Shown piece after piece: positions 1 through 22,402 of a stretch of DNA of 24,314 bases. Numbering within the stretch: position 1 is the first letter of the stretch; the number at the start of each line of letters is the position of its first letter. The notes under the pieces were generated by a model. The model saw nothing but the letters and a program-made list of their open reading frames with translations, made no database searches and was not told the DNA's origin. The position numbers and the translations under genes were made by a program. Source of the DNA: a virus; IMG/VR virus record IMGVR_UViG_3300010885_038393, positions 1 to 24,314 of that record. One strand, 5' to 3'.

Positions 1-1773
1 ACTGCATTAGAAACTGCAACAGGTTCATCAAATGTATCTATAACAAACTTAAATACGACAACTGCAAGTTTAAACACTTCAGTAAGTAATTTAAATACAT
101 TTAGTGGTTCTGAAAATACTAAATCTACTACATTACAAACTTACACCGCAAGTATTGATACAAGATTAACCGAAATCGGTGTTGTTAGTGGAAGTTTAAT
201 CACTTCAGCATCAGCAGCTAAAACTACAAATGACTCACAAGGAGTTTCAATAACAAATTTAAACACTACAACTGCAAGTTTAAATACTTCGGTAACTAAT
301 TTAAACACTACAACTGCAAGTTTAAACACTTCAGTAACTAATTTAAATACATATACATCTTCATTAAAAACCGCTTTATCATTAAGCGGTGCAGATTTAA
401 CAGTATTAGGTAATCTTACAGTACAAGGTGATACAACTACACTTAACACTGCAAACCTTTTAGTTGAAGATAAACTAATTGAATTAGCAATAGGTACAAC
501 AACTTCTGCAGGAGCAAACGGAGCGGGTATCTATATTAGTGGTGCAAATGCAAGTATTCTTTGGGATGATGCCAACTCTACTTTAGATATTAATAAATCA
601 ATTGATATTGTAGGAAATATTACATTAACAGGAAATGTTGATGGTGTAGATGTTTCGGTTTTAAATTCAAATATAAACACAACTACTGCAAGTTTAAACA
701 CTTCAGTAAGTAATTTAAATACATTTAGTGGTTCTGAAAATACTAAATCTACTACATTAGCTACATTAACTGGTTCATACGATACAAGATTTACCACAAT
801 AGGTAGTTATACTTCATCTTTAGAAACAAGAATGACCGCAGTAGGAACATCAACAGGTTCTTTAAACACTTCGGTAACTAACTTAAACTTAACTACTGCA
901 AGTTTAAACACTTCGGTAAGTAACTTAAATACAGCAACCTCATCTTACGAAACAAAAGGTAGAGGAATTGTATCGGGTTCAGCACAAATAGATGGTTCTT
1001 TATTAGGTTCAAACAAAACAATAACAGTCGGTTCAACTTCAATTACATTAGGTGGAACTGCAACAACAATAGCAGGTTTAACATCAGTTAGTTCGACTGG
1101 ATTTACAGGAGCATTGACAGGTAATGCATCAACCGCAACTACATTAGCAACTGCAAGAACAATTAACGGAACTTCATTTGATGGTTCTGCTAATATTACT
1201 ATTCCAAACTTAGTATCGGGCTCTTCTCAAATAACTTATGCTAGTATTAGTTCAATTCCTGCTGGAATCGTTAGTGGTTCTTCACAAACTATAATTAATT
1301 TAAACTCTGCAGCACCTGGTGTTGTTTCGGGTTCATCTCAAATTACACTAAGTTCAACAACGGGGTATGGTTCAATATTAAATCAGGCAGTATTAACTTC
1401 ATCTTCACCAACTTTTGCAGGTTTGACAATTAATGGAGCAATTACGGCAACGGGTGATATTACGGCATACTATTCTTCAGATAGAAGATATAAGAATAAT
1501 ATTCAAATTATACCAAACGCTTTAGAGAAAGTATCTAAATTGAATGGTGTAACTTGGGAATGGAATGATGATGTTAACGAAGTAACTAAGCAAGCACCAA
1601 ATACTGGTTTAATCGCACAAGAAGTGTTAGAAGTATTACCAGAAGTAGTAAAACAAAAAGAAGATGGATTCTTAGGTTTGGATTACGCTAAAATGATAGG
1701 TTTATTAGTTGAAGCAATTAAAGAACAACAATCTCAAATAGAAGAATTAAAAGCACAAATAGGTTCTAAATAA
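1..1773 (+). CDS. Tail fibre protein with C-terminal S74 chaperone (5' partial)
   Basis: The frame is open from base 1 to the stop at 1771-1773, so the window holds the last 590 residues of a longer fibre; the Met at 832 is internal. The first two thirds carry repeated 14-residue units of the type TASLNTSVTNLNTT, expected to form a trimeric coiled coil, around a beta-rich insert (LTVLGNLTVQGDTTTLN and after). Next come four xVSGSSQ-type repeats (near 964, 1210, 1264, 1318) and a segment of the TLATARTINGTSFDGSANIT type seen in many phage fibres. The C-terminus is an S74 intramolecular chaperone: SSDRRYKNNI, then IAQEVLEVLPEV and a terminal helix. In this family the chaperone trimerises the fibre and cuts itself off. 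The role is therefore host adhesion. The abundant Ser/Thr and the glycosyltransferase next door suggest possible glycosylation, which is inference. Confidence 0.88.
   Translation, partial: TALETATGSSNVSITNLNTTTASLNTSVSNLNTFSGSENTKSTTLQTYTASIDTRLTEIGVVSGSLITSASAAKTTNDSQGVSITNLNTTTASLNTSVTNLNTTTASLNTSVTNLNTYTSSLKTALSLSGADLTVLGNLTVQGDTTTLNTANLLVEDKLIELAIGTTTSAGANGAGIYISGANASILWDDANSTLDINKSIDIVGNITLTGNVDGVDVSVLNSNINTTTASLNTSVSNLNTFSGSENTKSTTLATLTGSYDTRFTTIGSYTSSLETRMTAVGTSTGSLNTSVTNLNLTTASLNTSVSNLNTATSSYETKGRGIVSGSAQIDGSLLGSNKTITVGSTSITLGGTATTIAGLTSVSSTGFTGALTGNASTATTLATARTINGTSFDGSANITIPNLVSGSSQITYASISSIPAGIVSGSSQTIINLNSAAPGVVSGSSQITLSSTTGYGSILNQAVLTSSSPTFAGLTINGAITATGDITAYYSSDRRYKNNIQIIPNALEKVSKLNGVTWEWNDDVNEVTKQAPNTGLIAQEVLEVLPEVVKQKEDGFLGLDYAKMIGLLVEAIKEQQSQIEELKAQIGSK
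61..135 (+). repeat. 75-bp exact direct repeat, copy 1 (in fibre gene)
   Basis: This 75-base stretch recurs without a mismatch at 685-759, exactly 624 bases (208 codons) downstream in the same frame. It encodes TASLNTSVSNLN followed by TFSGSENTKSTTL. The identity extends through synonymous positions, which indicates recent duplication or gene conversion rather than protein-level selection alone. Confidence 0.95.
271..354 (+). repeat. Tandem 42-bp repeat coding 14-residue coiled-coil unit
   Basis: Two adjacent near-identical 42-base units start at 271 and 313. Each encodes 14 residues of the type TASLNTSVTNLNTT. Single further units occur near 61, 685 and 895. The 14-residue period equals two heptads, with Leu and Val at core spacing, which fits a trimeric fibre stalk whose length can change by unit gain or loss. 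Confidence 0.85.
685..759 (+). repeat. 75-bp exact direct repeat, copy 2 (in fibre gene)
   Basis: Second copy of the repeat at 61-135. The flanks diverge at once on both sides (base before: a versus t; base after: c versus g), so the unit is sharply bounded. It encodes the same coiled-coil unit plus the SGSENTKST linker. Confidence 0.95.
1468..1773 (+). other. Peptidase S74 / intramolecular chaperone domain
   Basis: About 100 C-terminal residues of the fibre. The conserved Ser-Asp of YYSSDRRYKNNI lies at 1477-1482 and marks the expected autocleavage site. The motif is followed by the typical GLIAQEVLEVLPEVV block and a C-terminal helix (LLVEAIKEQQSQIEELKAQI) that forms the coiled-coil end. 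All family hallmarks are present, so cleavage is likely, but the exact bond is taken from family knowledge. Confidence 0.85.
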
Positions 1774-2772
1774 ATGTATGATGTTTACTACACCACCGCT
1801 GGAGGCCCTTGGTTCAATAGCGGTGCTGATATATGGGTAACTAATTGGATAAAAGAAGTGGCACCTTATTTAGAAGTAAAGCCACTTCTTCTTTTCCATA
1901 GACACAAACCTCAAAATTACGAAGAATTTCCAATTGATATCGACCATATTTGGGAAACATCGGAAGATGAAATCATAAAAATATTAGATGGTGCAAGAAG
2001 GATACATATATTGCATGGCCATTATACTCCAACCAGAGCTATTCATCAAAATTTGGAAAAAATTGATTCAATTATTTTTCATAATTTAACTAAAGTGTCA
2101 TTGATGGCACAGCAGGATAAAGATGAATATTTGCATTGGTATGGAAATTGGGAGTATGAAAATGAATTAATAAATAAAATTAAAAATAAAGTTTGGGTAG
2201 GATTGTATCATTTTCCATATGAAACGGAAAATTTACATCATATTCCAAATAATTATATTTTTACCAAAAACAATGAACTTTCTAAATCCACACAAATTGG
2301 ATATGCAGCAAGAGTTGAAGGTAGAAAGAATGTTGAATATATGGATGGATTAGGTGGATTCATTTCTACCAATTCAGAAACATTCAACAAATATTATAAA
2401 AAGAAATATGGATACAAATTTGAAAAATCAAAAATTTACAAATTTGATTACAAACATAAAGAAAGGTTCTACGGACTTGATTGGGGAATATCTCACTCTT
2501 GCTTTGAATTTGAACCATTTGGATACGGAATATTTGAAGCAGTGGATTGGGGTAAACTTCCAATATTACATGAAAAATGGCATGTTCCACTTGATTATAA
2601 ATACAAAGCGATTGACGAGGAAACATTTAAGGAGAACTACAAAACAATTTGTGAAGATGATTATGAAACCCGTAAAATCGAATTTGAAAAATTAAAAAAT
2701 TGGATGATTAAATACTTTTCTAATAAAGATGAATGGAAAGAAAAACTTTTAGATATTTATAACAGAGAATAA
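1774..2772 (+). CDS. Putative GT-B glycosyltransferase (GT4-like)
   Basis: 332 residues; the ATG directly abuts the fibre stop codon (TAAATG), implying translational coupling. The C-terminal half has the marks of a GT-B nucleotide-sugar transferase: GYAARVEGRKN (residues 176-186), where GT4 enzymes place the R/K that contact the donor phosphates, and FEPFGYGIFEAVDWGKLPIL, whose E247 and E255 form an E-x7-E donor-binding motif. The N-terminal half (IHILHGHYTP, then SIIFHN) fits an acceptor-side Rossmann domain. No membrane segment is visible, so it should be cytosolic. Its place between two adhesin genes suggests that it modifies Ser/Thr-rich fibre proteins; modification of host polysaccharide is an alternative. 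Fold assignment is fairly secure; donor and acceptor are unknown. Confidence 0.72.
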   Translation: MYDVYYTTAGGPWFNSGADIWVTNWIKEVAPYLEVKPLLLFHRHKPQNYEEFPIDIDHIWETSEDEIIKILDGARRIHILHGHYTPTRAIHQNLEKIDSIIFHNLTKVSLMAQQDKDEYLHWYGNWEYENELINKIKNKVWVGLYHFPYETENLHHIPNNYIFTKNNELSKSTQIGYAARVEGRKNVEYMDGLGGFISTNSETFNKYYKKKYGYKFEKSKIYKFDYKHKERFYGLDWGISHSCFEFEPFGYGIFEAVDWGKLPILHEKWHVPLDYKYKAIDEETFKENYKTICEDDYETRKIEFEKLKNWMIKYFSNKDEWKEKLLDIYNRE

Positions 2773-2782
2773 CACACAACTT

Positions 2783-4525
2783 ATGCCAAGGACAAATTTA
2801 TCATTAGGAAATTTATATAGAGCAGTGAGTGGTTCTGCAAGAACATCACAAGCAGTTTCAATCGGTGGATTAGGTGGTACTGCCGCTGGTAGTAATACTG
2901 CATTTACTTCATTCGCAGTAGATTCAATTACAGTAAACCAACCAACTTATACATATATTGTAGAAAGTACATCAGAAACAGCAACTTTTTCTTTTGGAAC
3001 ACAAGGTTCTTTGCATGGTACAAAAGTAGGAAGTGTAGCAGCAAACTATTCAGTAACATTTGATAATGCAAACTTTTCGGTAGGTTCTCCAACATTGGGA
3101 GCATCTCCATCTTTTCCAATTACACCTGCATCAATCGCAGCATCTAACTATTCGGAAGCATCTTCTGTTTTATCAATGAAATATGCCGATGGATATAATT
3201 TAAATGCAACAAATTACAATACTACAACTACTAAAACATTATACGCAGTTGATGTTTATAATACAATTAACCAACCGGATTTTTGTTTAGTATTTGGAAC
3301 TAAGGTAACTTTAGCAAATGGTAGCGAAGTAAATGTTGAAGATTTAAATGTTGGTGATGAAATTAAAGCATGGGTGCCAGCAGGATTACCGGATGAATCA
3401 TTAGATGGTACTGATACTCAATTAACTGAATGGAGATTTTATCAATTAGATACACAATCAGGTTCAGCACAAAATGTTGTTGTATCGGATGTAGTTTATA
3501 ACTTTGCAAGTGGATATTATTCAATAAATAACGGAGAAGTAAAAGCAACAGGCACACACCCTCTTTGGGTATTTGATTCTGAAATTGAAAAATATCATTT
3601 TAAAAACGTAGAAAATATACTTCCAGGTGATATGATTATCAAATGGGATGATTTTTTAAATGAAACGCAAGAAATTGAAGTAACTAATATAGAAGTTATA
3701 ACCGAAGATGTTGAAATTGCAACTATTAACGTAGAACAAGCTGACGTTTATATTGCAAATGGATACATTTCGCATAATAAAGGTACAACAACTCAACCAT
3801 ATATTCCATCAACGGGATTAAGAATGTATGTTGACCAATATAAAACAGTATCATACAATTCAGGAAGTGCAGGAGCAGATTGGTTAGATATGAGTGGTTA
3901 TGGTACAGGTGTAAGACCTGCAGGTGCACCAAACGCCGCAAGTATTACAGGTGATAACCCAACATCTACAAATGGTGCAAATAAGAAAGCATCATATGTA
4001 ACATTTAACGGAACTAACCAATTTTTTTATAAAGATACCGCAACAAATATTAATGGTGGATATTCTCAATTTAATGTTAATACGGGTACTATTCATATTT
4101 GGGTTAGACCTACAACAACATTAGGAACATCATCAAGATTCATTTTTGATTATGCAGGATTTTATGGTTTAGCAATTGAATCAACCGATAGTTCCACATT
4201 AAATAGAATAAAATTCTATGGTAGTTCATTAGGTAATTCGGCACAATTAACAACATCATTGACAGCTGGTACAAACTATTTGATTTCAGCAGCATTCCAA
4301 CCAAGTGGAACTTGTACAATTTATGTGGATGGCGCATCAATTGGTACGTTCTCATCAGCGGCCTTTACCGCACCGGCATCTACAAACTATGTAACAATAG
4401 GTTCAAATAGTGGTAGAACATCTTTTTGGAATGGTGGTATTCAAGCGGTATTGTTCTATAATGTGTTGCAAAACTCAACAAGCGTACAGCAAGTGTATAA
4501 TTATTTCTCTCCAACATTAAAGTAA
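2783..4525 (+). CDS. Virion adhesin with internal Hint (intein-like) domain and LamG lectin domain
   Basis: 580 residues in three parts. Residues 1-167 form a Ser/Thr/Ala-rich, probably beta-structured module that could anchor to the virion. Residues 168-332 are a Hint domain: CLVFGTKVTL at the start (block A, Cys168), VEDLNVGDEI, ATGTHPLWV (block B, T256/H259), and DVYIANGYISHN at the end (blocks F/G, H331-N332). Residues from about 345 to 578 resemble LamG/concanavalin-like lectin domains of phage proteins (GLRMYVDQYKTVSYNSG, ADWLDMSGYG, YVTFNGTNQFF, TIYVDGASIGTF). Lys333 stands at the +1 position where splicing inteins have Cys, Ser or Thr, so it resembles type A bacterial intein-like (BIL) domains, which mainly cleave. 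No homing endonuclease is inserted. A role in surface binding with self-processing is inferred; the N-terminal module is not recognised. Confidence 0.85.
   Translation: MPRTNLSLGNLYRAVSGSARTSQAVSIGGLGGTAAGSNTAFTSFAVDSITVNQPTYTYIVESTSETATFSFGTQGSLHGTKVGSVAANYSVTFDNANFSVGSPTLGASPSFPITPASIAASNYSEASSVLSMKYADGYNLNATNYNTTTTKTLYAVDVYNTINQPDFCLVFGTKVTLANGSEVNVEDLNVGDEIKAWVPAGLPDESLDGTDTQLTEWRFYQLDTQSGSAQNVVVSDVVYNFASGYYSINNGEVKATGTHPLWVFDSEIEKYHFKNVENILPGDMIIKWDDFLNETQEIEVTNIEVITEDVEIATINVEQADVYIANGYISHNKGTTTQPYIPSTGLRMYVDQYKTVSYNSGSAGADWLDMSGYGTGVRPAGAPNAASITGDNPTSTNGANKKASYVTFNGTNQFFYKDTATNINGGYSQFNVNTGTIHIWVRPTTTLGTSSRFIFDYAGFYGLAIESTDSSTLNRIKFYGSSLGNSAQLTTSLTAGTNYLISAAFQPSGTCTIYVDGASIGTFSSAAFTAPASTNYVTIGSNSGRTSFWNGGIQAVLFYNVLQNSTSVQQVYNYFSPTLK
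3284..3778 (+). other. Hint / bacterial intein-like domain (no endonuclease)
   Basis: 165 residues running from TGT (Cys168) at 3284-3286 to AAT (Asn332) at 3776-3778. Visible catalytic residues are the N-terminal Cys, the TxxH pair T256/H259 and the penultimate His331 with terminal Asn332. The next codon is AAA (Lys). The compact length leaves no room for LAGLIDADG or HNH homing domains. Activity is expected at the N-terminal Cys (thioester) and the C-terminal Asn (cyclisation), giving cleavage rather than standard splicing. Confidence 0.85.
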
Positions 4526-4596: not shown

Positions 4597-6906
4597 ATGG
4601 CAGAGAAAATAGTATCACCAGGCGTATTTACAAAAGAAAACGACCTTTCATTCTTACAACAAGGTGTAGCTGATATAGGTGCAGCATTCATTGGTCCTTT
4701 TAAAGAAGGTCCTTTAACTCCAACAATCGTTAATTCTCAAGCAGAATTTGAACAATTATTTGGTAGTGTTGATGACACATATTATACTCCTTTAGCAGTA
4801 CAAAATTATTTAAGAGAAGCAGGAACTGCAACTATTTGTAGAGTAGCTGGAAAAACGGGTTATACCGAAGCCGCTCCTTTATTATTAATAGCAGCAACCG
4901 GTTCATATACAGGTGCATTGGGTATCTTATTTAATACATCAGGAAGTGCAATTGGTTTCACAGGAACAACGGTTTCCGATAGAGATGCTAGTGGTGATTT
5001 TTCAATTATGTTAAGTGGTAGTGGAATAGCTCCAACTGGATATAGTGCATCTTTAGAATTATCAGATGATAATGATATTGAATCAGTATTTGGTACATCT
5101 GCATATGGTACAAAAAGAGCTTACTCATACGCTTTTTTTAAAGAAAACGGATTTGTAGCTAATACAGGTTCCTATACATTATCTGGAGCAGATGGAATTA
5201 CTTCGGGTTCATTCACAGGTTCATTGGGTACACTTACTCCTTTAAGTGCAAGTGTTGTGGTATTAGGAAATCAATCATTTAGTGGTTCTGCACAAAATGG
5301 TGAAGCATGTGAGGCATTAACTCCAATGATTAAATCTCAATTAATTTCAGGCGATAGATATTCTTTATTCCAAATTGAAACAATTACTGCAGGAAATGCA
5401 GCAAATACTAAAATAAAAGTTGGTATTTCAAATGTAAAAGCAGCTGGTACTACAAACGGAACTGATTATGGTACATTTACTGTTGTAGTTAGAGATTTTA
5501 ATGATACTGATAAAAAGAAAGTAGTATTAGAAACATATTCAAATGTAAACTTAGACCCTAATTCTCCTAACTATATTAGTAGAGTAATTGGTGATAGAAA
5601 AAGAAGTATTGATTCTTTAGGTAAAATAACTGAAAGTGGCGATTGGGTTAATAATTCAAAATATATTAGAATTGTTAATGTAAATACTGAAGCTCCAGTT
5701 CAAGCAGTACCTTTTGGACACGCAGCATATCAATTACCTGTAAATGCAGGAAATTACGCAACTTATATCCCAAGAGCAACATTCTCAACGGGTTCAGTAG
5801 CAGATTCTTCAAAATATAGTGGTATTGATTTTGATAATAATGGTGATAATAAAATCTATATGAAGCCAGTTCCTGTAAGTGCAGGAAATGGAGCAAACGC
5901 AGTATTCTCTTTAGATACTATTTGTGGTTTAACATTATCTTCAACAACATCAGCAGAAATTGCAAAAAGACAATTTATTGTAGGATTCCAAGAAGGTTTT
6001 GATGGATACGCTCCAAACACGCATGGTTCTGATATAGACCCGGCAACAGCAGCTGGTAAATTAGCATACGGAAAACATATCGCAGCATTATCAAACGCTG
6101 ATGAATATGATATCAATATGGTAGTTGCACCACATGTTAATAGATATGACCACTCAGCAGTGTTTACTTCAATTTTAGATATGGTAGAGCAAAGAGCAGA
6201 TGCATTCTTTATTGGAGATGCAGGTAACGCTTCAACTTCATTATCAGCAACTATAACACAAGCACAATCGGTAGATTCTAACTACGCAGCAGTTTATTAT
6301 CCTTGGGTTAAAACAATTGATGTTAACACAAATAAATTAATTACTGTTCCACCATCAGTATTATTACCTGGCGTATTTGCAGCAAACGATAGAGTAGCAG
6401 CAGAATGGTTCGCACCAGCAGGTTTGAATAGAGGTGGATTAGTAGGAGCAGTTAGTGTATTGAATAGATTAACACAATCTGAAAAAGATGATTTATATGA
6501 AAATAAAGTAAATCCAATCGTACAATTTCCAGGACAAGGTATTGTAGTATTCGGACAAAAAACATTACAAGATAAACCATCAGCATTGGATAGAATCAAC
6601 GTAAGAAGATTATTATTGACTGTTAGAAAATATATCGCATCTACTTCTCGTTATTTAGTGTTCGAACAAAACACATCAACGACAAGAAATAGATTCTTAA
6701 ATATCGTTAATCCTTATTTAGAATCAATCCAACAAAGACAAGGTCTTTACGCTTTCAGAGTGGTTATGGATGATACTAATAACACACCAGATGTAATTGA
6801 TAGAAACATTATGAAAGGGGCTATCTATTTACAACCAACTAAGACAGCTGAATTCATTCAAATTGATTTCAACATCTTACCAACTGGCGCCGCTTTTAAC
6901 GGATAA
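4597..6906 (+). CDS. Contractile tail sheath protein (T4 gp18-like)
   Basis: 769 residues, longer than T4 gp18 (659). The N-terminus (IVSPGVFTKENDLSF, then IGAAFIGPFKEGP and TPLAVQNYLREAG) and the C-terminal core from about residue 649 (VVFGQKTLQDKPSALDRINV, RNRFLNIVNPYLESI, DRNIMKGAIYLQPT, AEFIQIDFNI) are typical of the sheath family. The C-terminal part forms the conserved inner domain that packs on the tube and links neighbouring subunits. The extra length lies mainly between about residues 90 and 260 and is Gly/Ser/Thr-rich, consistent with an outward-facing insertion domain. The gene starts a late unit with the tube gene, behind an AT-only promoter motif; no Shine-Dalgarno is visible and the start is preceded by an A-rich run. 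Confidence 0.95.
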   Translation: MAEKIVSPGVFTKENDLSFLQQGVADIGAAFIGPFKEGPLTPTIVNSQAEFEQLFGSVDDTYYTPLAVQNYLREAGTATICRVAGKTGYTEAAPLLLIAATGSYTGALGILFNTSGSAIGFTGTTVSDRDASGDFSIMLSGSGIAPTGYSASLELSDDNDIESVFGTSAYGTKRAYSYAFFKENGFVANTGSYTLSGADGITSGSFTGSLGTLTPLSASVVVLGNQSFSGSAQNGEACEALTPMIKSQLISGDRYSLFQIETITAGNAANTKIKVGISNVKAAGTTNGTDYGTFTVVVRDFNDTDKKKVVLETYSNVNLDPNSPNYISRVIGDRKRSIDSLGKITESGDWVNNSKYIRIVNVNTEAPVQAVPFGHAAYQLPVNAGNYATYIPRATFSTGSVADSSKYSGIDFDNNGDNKIYMKPVPVSAGNGANAVFSLDTICGLTLSSTTSAEIAKRQFIVGFQEGFDGYAPNTHGSDIDPATAAGKLAYGKHIAALSNADEYDINMVVAPHVNRYDHSAVFTSILDMVEQRADAFFIGDAGNASTSLSATITQAQSVDSNYAAVYYPWVKTIDVNTNKLITVPPSVLLPGVFAANDRVAAEWFAPAGLNRGGLVGAVSVLNRLTQSEKDDLYENKVNPIVQFPGQGIVVFGQKTLQDKPSALDRINVRRLLLTVRKYIASTSRYLVFEQNTSTTRNRFLNIVNPYLESIQQRQGLYAFRVVMDDTNNTPDVIDRNIMKGAIYLQPTKTAEFIQIDFNILPTGAAFNG

Positions 6907-16333: not shown

Positions 16334-16708
16334 ATGTATAAAGATATAGCAAAAAATATTGATAATTTTACTATTAAGATACCAAATACTATCGTACCAA
16401 CACCATCTGCTTCAGATTATGAAAATGGATTTATAGAACGATATTTTTTACAAGTTAGTTTTGATTCAAATGGGTTTGTATATGAAGTAACTGAAAAAGT
16501 ATTTGATAAATACATTGAAACTCCATTTTGGATTGGTGAAAGACTTTTTTGGAGAATCATAGGTCCAATGGATACTATGTATAATGAATTTGGAGATGAA
16601 AAAGATAAAGGAGTAATTAACTCAAATAAAGCATCAATTTCAATAGCTTCTTTGAAAATTAAAAATATTTCCTTATATTTACCAAACTTAAAACAATTTC
16701 ATAAATAA
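16334..16708 (+). CDS. Small conserved-type phage protein, probably baseplate-associated
   Basis: 124 residues, starting one base after the hub stop and overlapping the next gene by one base, so clearly part of the baseplate operon. The sequence shows NFTIKIPNTIVPTPSASDYE, GFIERYFLQVSFDSNGFVYE and TPFWIGERLFWRIIGP, a mixed alpha/beta pattern rich in aromatic residues and free of Cys. The GFIERYF segment looks like a conserved core of proteins found beside hub genes in marine T4-like phages, but I cannot name the family. A structural role at the hub is inferred from position. Confidence 0.65.
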   Translation: MYKDIAKNIDNFTIKIPNTIVPTPSASDYENGFIERYFLQVSFDSNGFVYEVTEKVFDKYIETPFWIGERLFWRIIGPMDTMYNEFGDEKDKGVINSNKASISIASLKIKNISLYLPNLKQFHK

Positions 16709-17469
16709 TGAAACACGTTAACAACACCGAAGCTGAAAACTTATTGCACGATTGGAAATACAAAGGATATGCAATTGTGGATTTTCTTACTGAATCCGAA
16801 GTCGATGAAATAATTGTTGAATTGGATAGATTAAGAATTAATAGAAATCAATCTGATACAAAATGGGGAGAATATGAACCATACATGCATCCACATAAAG
16901 AATCCGAATTGGTTAATAAGATGTTAGCACATCCAAAAGCCATTGAAATGATGGAATTATTATTTGATTCAGAAGTACAGGGTGTACAAACGTGGGCATA
17001 CTTCAAACCATCGGGTGAATTGGGAAGGGATGCGCATCAAGATGGATTCTACTCACAAGCAGGTTGGAATAAGATTGCAAACATATCAATATCATTAGAC
17101 CCATCAGATGAAACTAATGGTGGATTATGGGCATATGAAGGTTCTCACTATTTACCATTGTTGGATATTGAAGTGGATGAGGAAAGAATTAAAACAAACC
17201 CAGGCAATTGGAGAAACGAAAGAGGTAAAGCATCTAAAATGCCTGAAGGACACAATTTCCCAAAAATATATGCTACACTTAAAAAAGGACAAGCATTTTT
17301 AATACATTCGCATTTAGTGCACGGCTCTGATACAAATACGGGTAAGAATTCTAGATATTCCATTTTAAGTGGATATATGGTTAAAGGTGGGTTTCTTAGA
17401 CAAGGAGAGCATATGAAAAGAGAACCAATTGATATTTATGCATTAAGACAGAAATATTGGGAAGAATAA
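16708..17469 (+). CDS. Phytanoyl-CoA dioxygenase-like 2OG/Fe(II) oxygenase
   Basis: 253 residues of PhyH type. The metal-binding triad is visible: H110-x-D112 in DAHQDGFYSQAG and the distal H205 in HSHLVHGSDTNTG, with R216 eleven residues later to bind 2-oxoglutarate. SISLDPSDETNGGLWAYEGS, with its NG-W-x(2)-GSH pattern, is also typical. Length matches the family. The enzyme should hydroxylate a small molecule, lipid, nucleotide or protein in the cytosol; the substrate cannot be read from sequence. It overlaps the last baseplate gene (TAATG), so it is made late with structural proteins, which would fit modification of a virion component or of cell-envelope material. T4-like marine phages often carry such genes. 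Confidence 0.85.
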   Translation: MKHVNNTEAENLLHDWKYKGYAIVDFLTESEVDEIIVELDRLRINRNQSDTKWGEYEPYMHPHKESELVNKMLAHPKAIEMMELLFDSEVQGVQTWAYFKPSGELGRDAHQDGFYSQAGWNKIANISISLDPSDETNGGLWAYEGSHYLPLLDIEVDEERIKTNPGNWRNERGKASKMPEGHNFPKIYATLKKGQAFLIHSHLVHGSDTNTGKNSRYSILSGYMVKGGFLRQGEHMKREPIDIYALRQKYWEE

Positions 17470-21751: not shown

Positions 21752-22402
21752 ATGAAGGATATTTACCAAGGACCAGTTTACGAATTCCTTATAAATGAAA
21801 GCCTTAACAATAGAATGGGTTGGGGAGGAAATGCCGGAAGTATTGATGGTATTTCAGATTATGACCTAAACAATTCTAGACGTGGTACTACATTTATGAG
21901 AGAGTTTCTCAATGCAGAAAACCCATTTACAATTTTAGAAACAGGAACCAATTATGGTTCATTTAGTTACGTTTTATATGAAACGTTAAATGATTTCAAA
22001 TTATTTACATGCGATGCGCATTCTGATAATCAATCAATGCGATGTGTAAATTTCATTAATGAATACTACGATGATAATAAAGTTTTTTATCAGAACATTA
22101 ATAGTATTCAATTACTTACTCAATTAAATAATACGGGAGTTAAAGTTGATTTAGCTTGGTTAGATAGTACTCACACATACGATATGCTATTAGAAGAACT
22201 AATGTTAACTAAATCATTAGAAGCTAAATTTATTATGATTGATGATTTTTGGACTCAAAAGGAATTACAAAATGCAGTATTAGATTTTGTAAGACAAAAT
22301 GGAGAATATAGAATTCATTCTTTTTCAAATATCAGAGAAAACGTAGGTTCTATTATAATCCTTCAAAGAATTGAAGCAGACAATTTAAATTTAGATAAAT
22401 AA
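21752..22402 (+). CDS. Class I SAM-dependent methyltransferase
   Basis: 216 residues. The Rossmann-type SAM site is clear: ILETGTNYGSFSYVLYE (motif I, residues 61-77), LFTCDAHSD (D88, ribose contact), VDLAWLDSTHTYDMLLEEL (D138, H141) and FIMIDDFW (D164-D165). The W-L-D-S-T-H-T-Y segment and the following acidic pair match the small-molecule methyltransferase group that includes Methyltransf_24 and cephalosporin-hydroxylase-like proteins, where the acidic residues can bind a metal. There is no DNA-methylase DPPY or PC motif, so DNA methylation in the usual way is unlikely. A host-type promoter and the DUF1599 gene just downstream suggest early expression. Acceptor unknown: nucleotide, sugar or protein. 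Confidence 0.82.
   Translation: MKDIYQGPVYEFLINESLNNRMGWGGNAGSIDGISDYDLNNSRRGTTFMREFLNAENPFTILETGTNYGSFSYVLYETLNDFKLFTCDAHSDNQSMRCVNFINEYYDDNKVFYQNINSIQLLTQLNNTGVKVDLAWLDSTHTYDMLLEELMLTKSLEAKFIMIDDFWTQKELQNAVLDFVRQNGEYRIHSFSNIRENVGSIIILQRIEADNLNLDK

Follow-up and report, generated by a model that had tools for sequence, protein, structure and literature searches.

What does an intein-like Hint domain do in a protein encoded among phage tail genes, when the residue that follows it is a lysine rather than Cys, Ser or Thr? This question is raised by a gene on a virus fragment of 24,314 bases (IMG/VR record IMGVR_UViG_3300010885_038393), the whole of which is referred to here as the window. To our knowledge, bacterial intein-like (BIL) domains have been known for more than 20 years with no clear natural role, and a search confined to the open-access literature turned up no phage tail protein described as carrying a BIL.

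The gene set of the window is that of a T4-like contractile-tailed phage, including a tail-fibre-like protein, tail sheath, tail tube, baseplate hub and tape measure. Its sheath protein is nearest to those of Microcystis phage Mel-JY01, the uncultured phage LR756508 and Flavobacterium phage immuto (39-45% identity). A PhyH-type dioxygenase (16708-17469) and a methyltransferase-like gene (21752-22402) are also present among the phage genes. Translation of the open reading frame 2783-4525 gave the protein of 580 residues that had been described before, and its parts and neighbours are listed in Table 1.

Table 1. Features of the Hint-containing gene and its neighbours, in window coordinates.
Feature	Position	Strand	Basis or remark
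Tail-fibre-like protein	1..1773	+	Upstream; match to long tail fibre PHROGs in the C-terminal region
332-residue partner gene, begins MYDVYY	1774..2772	+	Directly 5' of the Hint gene; no detectable family
580-residue protein: N-module, Hint and LamG-like domain	2783..4525	+	Same three-part order in all complete homologues
N-module, residues 1-167, near-invariant extein end VYNTINQPDF	2783..3283	+	No PHROG match; homologue alignment
Hint domain, residues 168-332 (C168 to N332)	3284..3778	+	Family profile, predicted fold, Foldseek
Cys168, putative N-terminal nucleophile	3284..3286	+	Codon TGT in 167/167 sequences
Insertion of ~33 residues in the Hint, WVPAGLPDE...EWRFY	3371..3469	+	Family-conserved; not an endonuclease
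Block B, T256-G-T-H259	3548..3559	+	T256 and H259 invariant
Block G, H331-N332	3773..3778	+	Invariant
+1/+2, Lys333-Gly334	3779..3784	+	Invariant
C-extein: conserved linker KGTTTQPYIPSTG and LamG-like jelly roll	3779..4525	+	Best Pfam stretch 4064-4480
Tail sheath gene	4597..6906	+	Directly 3' of the Hint gene

The Hint domain and its flanks

The presence of a Hint domain at residues 168-332 was confirmed by profile comparison and by the predicted fold. The single protein scored 15.9 bits against the Pfam family Intein_splicing, which is below the cut-off of 35.8. A profile of the family, which took in two distant phage Hints (L298 and L399), matched the C. thermocellum BIL 2LWY (E=1.7e-5) and Tetrahymena BIL2 (E=3e-5) in the PDB, with inteins following at E=0.011. 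A model of the Hint alone, built from family sequences only, reached a pLDDT of 83.8 and a pTM of 0.81. When this model was submitted to Foldseek, BIL2 (6Y75) was the best match (E=3.8e-9), 2LWY (E=2.1e-7), a Hedgehog Hint (E=2.9e-7) and inteins were also retrieved, and the best 50 of the 53 matches at E<=1e-3 were all Hint-superfamily structures.

Cys168, Thr256, His259, His331 and Asn332 were found intact, with Lys333 at +1 (window positions 3284, 3548, 3557, 3773, 3776 and 3779), exactly as the preliminary description had it; its claim that there is no endonuclease also agrees with a Pfam search of the protein, which returned no endonuclease family. At the block F position, where His is common in inteins, the family has an invariant Asp321. 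By sequence and fold, the domain fits a type A BIL, since it combines the Hint fold, Cys and block B TxxH with a C-terminal His-Asn and a non-nucleophilic +1 residue. With 2LWY, the type A BIL of C. thermocellum, it additionally shares the lack of an endonuclease and a mosaic host protein; unlike 2LWY, it lies in a phage tail-region protein, is fixed in its family, carries Lys at +1 invariably and Asp for the block F His, and has the insertion of ~33 residues, which is particular to this protein family. Hedgehog C-terminal Hints have in common with it the fold, the expected thioester chemistry and a domain downstream of the Hint, but in the 580-residue protein HN closes the Hint and 248 more residues, with a lectin-like domain, come after it, whereas a Hedgehog Hint stands at or near the C-terminus with a sterol-recognition region.

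The LamG-like domain was recognised as Laminin_G_3 (E=6e-12, 46.4 bits versus a curated cut-off of 27.6), and a full-length model of moderate quality (pLDDT 71.9) was used mainly for its fold. Residues 1-167 had no match to any PHROG family, and a PDB search with the whole protein gave nothing for them. Hence, of the arrangement first proposed, a Hint between a virion module and a lectin domain, the Hint and the lectin side stand, while the name 'virion module' was not confirmed; attachment of residues 1-167 to the virion, for which gene position and LamG are the arguments, is not supported. The same gene position and LamG domain make it plausible that the 580-residue product is a phage adhesin.

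Conservation and mosaicism of the family

Relatives of the protein are encoded on ~300 viral contig stretches. No relatives were found in the bacterial genomes searched, and no full-length relatives in the annotated phages searched. Invariance was counted in 167 distinct full-length viral homologues, with members down to ~53% identity. Across these sequences 52 of the 580 residues are invariant, among them C168, T256, H259, H331, N332, K333 and G334. All five catalytic residues belong to this set (hypergeometric p=2e-4 within the Hint), although the majority of positions in the domain are variable. Synonymous codon variation was observed at T256, H259, H331, N332 and G334; the Cys168 codon is always TGT and that of Lys333 nearly always AAA, which makes those two sites less informative. 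The dN/dS ratio was 0.28 for the Hint and 0.26 and 0.28 for its flanks, absolute values that are rough because dS is high. Invariance is concentrated next to the two junctions, the extein side included (20 of 37 residues versus 32 of 543 elsewhere, p=1e-13), as is expected if both junctions are substrates.

These data bear on whether the Hint might be a catalytically dead structural linker. The fold alone could serve as a spacer, and the Hint of LR756508 has indeed lost the block B His (its TxxH reads SASQ). Such a linker would nevertheless not account for five catalytic residues that stay the same in 167 sequences while most of the Hint around them varies, nor for the conservation of both junctions, and we consider it quite improbable in this family.

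We found no Hint-free allele among 414 homologous ORFs with N-module, Hint and LamG, using as queries the N-module, the LamG domain, one distant member and a DNA pattern of the junction, a search that distant alleles could escape. ORFs that missed one part were explained by contig ends or frame breaks. In four loci (L039, L070, L079 and L335) the reading frame is broken in or after the Hint, perhaps through assembly errors. The lack of Hint-free alleles together with the lack of an endonuclease indicates that the domain is fixed rather than a mobile intein. An ordinary mini-intein that recently landed in the gene would have the same fold, and Hint ends of the intein type, with Cys, Ser or Thr at +1, are common in viral contigs. 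However, neither a +1 nucleophile, nor Hint-free host alleles, nor the (optional) homing endonuclease of inteins was found here, and the location of the Hint is a linker between two domains; this origin is therefore extremely unlikely.

The family of gene 2783-4525 is mosaic. Pairwise identities of the N-module, Hint and LamG parts are almost uncorrelated (r = 0.07 to 0.18), and in some phages the N-module and Hint are 97-100% identical with a LamG half at ~40%. The breakpoints of these lectin swaps, determined with pairs involving truncated sequences ignored, are mostly near residue 390 and in some cases near residue 330, the end of the Hint. As most swaps occurred near residue 390, the exchange point is not the Hint itself. 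Polymorphic proteins are known to have C-terminal parts that can be exchanged.

Lysine at +1 and the predicted reaction

Tabulation of the +1 residue in the family gave Lys333 in 167 of 167 sequences. To put this in context, Hint ends were surveyed with the pattern [FY]ANGxxVHN in bacterial and archaeal genomes, and the 115 matches listed had at +1 Cys (47), Lys (29), Ser (15), Thr (12) or Arg (5), among others. Where no more than 15 residues followed the Asn (n=23 among the matches listed), the +1 residue was Lys in 17 cases and Arg in 5 (Fisher p=5e-14, a value that is only a guide, given the bias that the pattern brings to the survey and the relatedness of the sequences). Many of the surveyed Lys/Arg ends belong to Rhs-like proteins of Bacteroidota, and several of the longer Lys+1 cases run directly into another Hint. 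The 120 matches listed for a similar pattern on viral contigs had at +1 Cys (96), Ser (15), Thr (4) or Lys (2), among others. One phage of the 2783-4525 family (G015) also encodes a multi-Hint protein with the exact end VHNK.

Taken together, the survey and this VHNK-ending protein indicate that Lys at +1 accompanies Hints that have nothing to ligate. With Lys or Arg in 22 of the 23 listed bacterial Hint ends that have almost no C-extein, the suggestion that Lys+1 is a special feature of the adhesin is weakened. In the 2783-4525 family, the Lys+1 Hint end is followed by the lectin-like domain. The His-Asn followed by Lys or Arg is shared with the PT-HINT, or C-terminal Hint, of the Bacteroidota Rhs-like proteins; unlike in those proteins, the C-terminal part here is LamG-like, resides in a phage and contains no toxin. 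The Lys+1 pattern favours a reaction through an N-terminal thioester, leading to cleavage or transfer, together with Asn cleavage, over efficient splicing.

The fold and residues of the Hint would make the following steps possible. Cys168, assisted by T256 and H259, would attack the carbonyl of Phe167 to form a thioester, and Asn332, aided by His331, would cyclise and free the Lys333 end. With Lys at +1 the usual branched ester could not form, so that the protein would mainly be cleaved at one end or both, or its thioester would undergo aminolysis. Candidate amines for the latter are the freed alpha-amine of Lys333, its side chain, or a Lys of a partner. After translation, the N-module may in this way be split from the exchangeable LamG domain or re-joined to it.

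Type A BILs that lack a +1 nucleophile chiefly undergo cleavage; some ligation also occurs, when the freed amine attacks the thioester (PMC4031507). BILs in general yield mostly cleaved products (PMC7664689). BIL2 of the Tetrahymena BUBL1 locus (6Y75, 6TMM), the best structural match, transfers its own N-extein to a Lys side chain (PMC8616854); BIL2 differs from the phage Hint in its eukaryotic polyubiquitin context, its Zn-dependent switch and its acceptor Lys in the next ubiquitin-like domain.

On balance, we favour, with moderate confidence, a tail-region surface protein with a fixed and active type-A-BIL-like Hint, of which cleavage or aminolysis is the main outcome. The preliminary preference for cleavage or transfer over normal splicing thus remains the best reading, in view of the fold, the HN end and the set of catalytic residues, the non-nucleophilic +1 residue and the absence of an endonuclease and of Hint-free alleles; what is weakened is the special role of the lysine in this adhesin. 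Cleavage with some ligation is ranked first because characterised BILs without a +1 nucleophile behave in this manner, and the active-site residues that are invariant in 167 relatives suggest that these phages probably cut or re-join their surface protein on purpose. Several points count against this reading: the loss of the block B His in LR756508, which means that the wider group is not active throughout, Asp321 at block F, the Pfam score of the single protein and the frame breaks in a few loci.

The choice among a released LamG, a ligated chain and an N-module on another amine is not one that sequence can decide. One course is efficient ligation in cis, in which the Hint would excise itself and a peptide or isopeptide bond would link the N-module to Lys333-LamG, making the Hint only a maturation or timing device. 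The ability of type A BILs to ligate without a +1 nucleophile (PMC4031507) would allow this, the extein sides of both junctions are conserved (VYNTINQPDF and KG...Q), and a Lys+1 Hint in a loop of another phage protein (L540) has homologues without the Hint, so that the flanks work as one protein there. Yet a +1 residue other than Cys, Ser or Thr, the prevalence of Lys or Arg where there is nothing to ligate (22 of 23 among the matches listed) and the mostly cleaved products of BILs (PMC7664689) all argue the other way, and there is no Hint-free allele to show that the joined form works. We regard efficient cis ligation as unlikely.

The partner gene and other phage Hint domains

The sheath gene lies directly downstream of the Hint gene in 389 of 389 loci with room for it, and gene 1774-2772 directly upstream in 293 of 293, with a median gap of 15 bases; in both counts the loci overlap and are non-independent. 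The sole relative of gene 1774-2772 in 50,697 phage records is in LR756508 (34%), where it is directly downstream of a 432-residue protein whose C-terminal Hint ends in HNKH and then a stop (L298:3499-4797). The pairing of gene 1774-2772 with a Hint gene is new here and, in phages this distant, was the least expected result. A scan for related loci with the LR756508 Hint protein as query found nothing. The product of gene 1774-2772 had no Pfam or PDB match. Its stretch EPFGYGIFEA resembles a GT-B motif by eye, and a profile comparison with the glycosyltransferase WaaG of E. coli gave nothing, being no better than an unrelated control protein. Likewise, 296 genomes of the L400 phylum yielded none, a search that shows little because it had no positive control.

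The constant partner bears on a Hedgehog-like transfer, in which a glycan or the Lys of another protein would attack the thioester from outside and become covalently attached to the N-module. This nucleophile might be selected by LamG or prepared by the 1774-2772 product. Such a transfer agrees with the linkage in all 293 loci and with the HNKH-ending neighbour of the only relative, with other phage proteins that have C-terminal Hints and little or no C-extein (L298, L399 and L704), and with the conjugation by Tetrahymena BIL2 of its N-extein to Lys (PMC8616854). The linked gene, however, has no recognisable family, gene linkage is common in phages without any shared chemistry, and an intact HN end is unnecessary for such a transfer, for which reasons we judge it unlikely. 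More speculative, and improbable, is that the MYDV gene and the Hint protein form a two-gene unit in which the Hint bonds the N-module to an outside nucleophile, for example a lysine of a partner protein, or else a glycan or receptor that the exchangeable LamG domain holds, giving a covalent, self-activated phage adhesin. If the N-module were moved to another molecule, this would be a new way of building or attaching a phage tail protein.

The BIL-like Hint is fixed and invariant in its gene family and has a defined place between tail-fibre-type genes and the sheath gene; the lectin-like end of the protein is exchangeable, and the partner gene is constant. A BIL so placed makes a natural BIL function testable in the virion by ordinary protein chemistry.

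Hint domains were also seen in other phage proteins. The virion structural protein family phrog_38766 (Erwinia phage pEa_SNUABM_2 gp110) likewise has a C-terminal Hint with intact C, TxxH and HN and is virion-annotated, but differs in its collagen-like stalk, Thr at +1, a short tail after the Hint and no lectin. A second protein of the phages studied here, which begins MKGT and has 735-765 residues (L294:2145-4442, minus strand; L295:944-3151 and L704:360-2624, plus strand), contains two or three tandem Hint-like domains, in one case with the exact VHNK end. The Lys+1 Hint of L540 (5742-8144, minus strand) is inserted in a glycine-rich loop of a protein among baseplate-type genes, and the homologues without a Hint are from Tenacibaculum, Chryseobacterium and Sphingomonas phages. 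In LR756508, a protein of 1386 residues that appears portal-like by eye (L299:3764-7924) carries at least two, apparently three, intein-like insertions. Finally, C-terminal Hints similar to that of gene 2783-4525 (E ~1e-14) were observed at L548:8207 (plus strand) and L615:4424 (minus strand), with Thr or Ala at +1 and tails of 19-21 residues.
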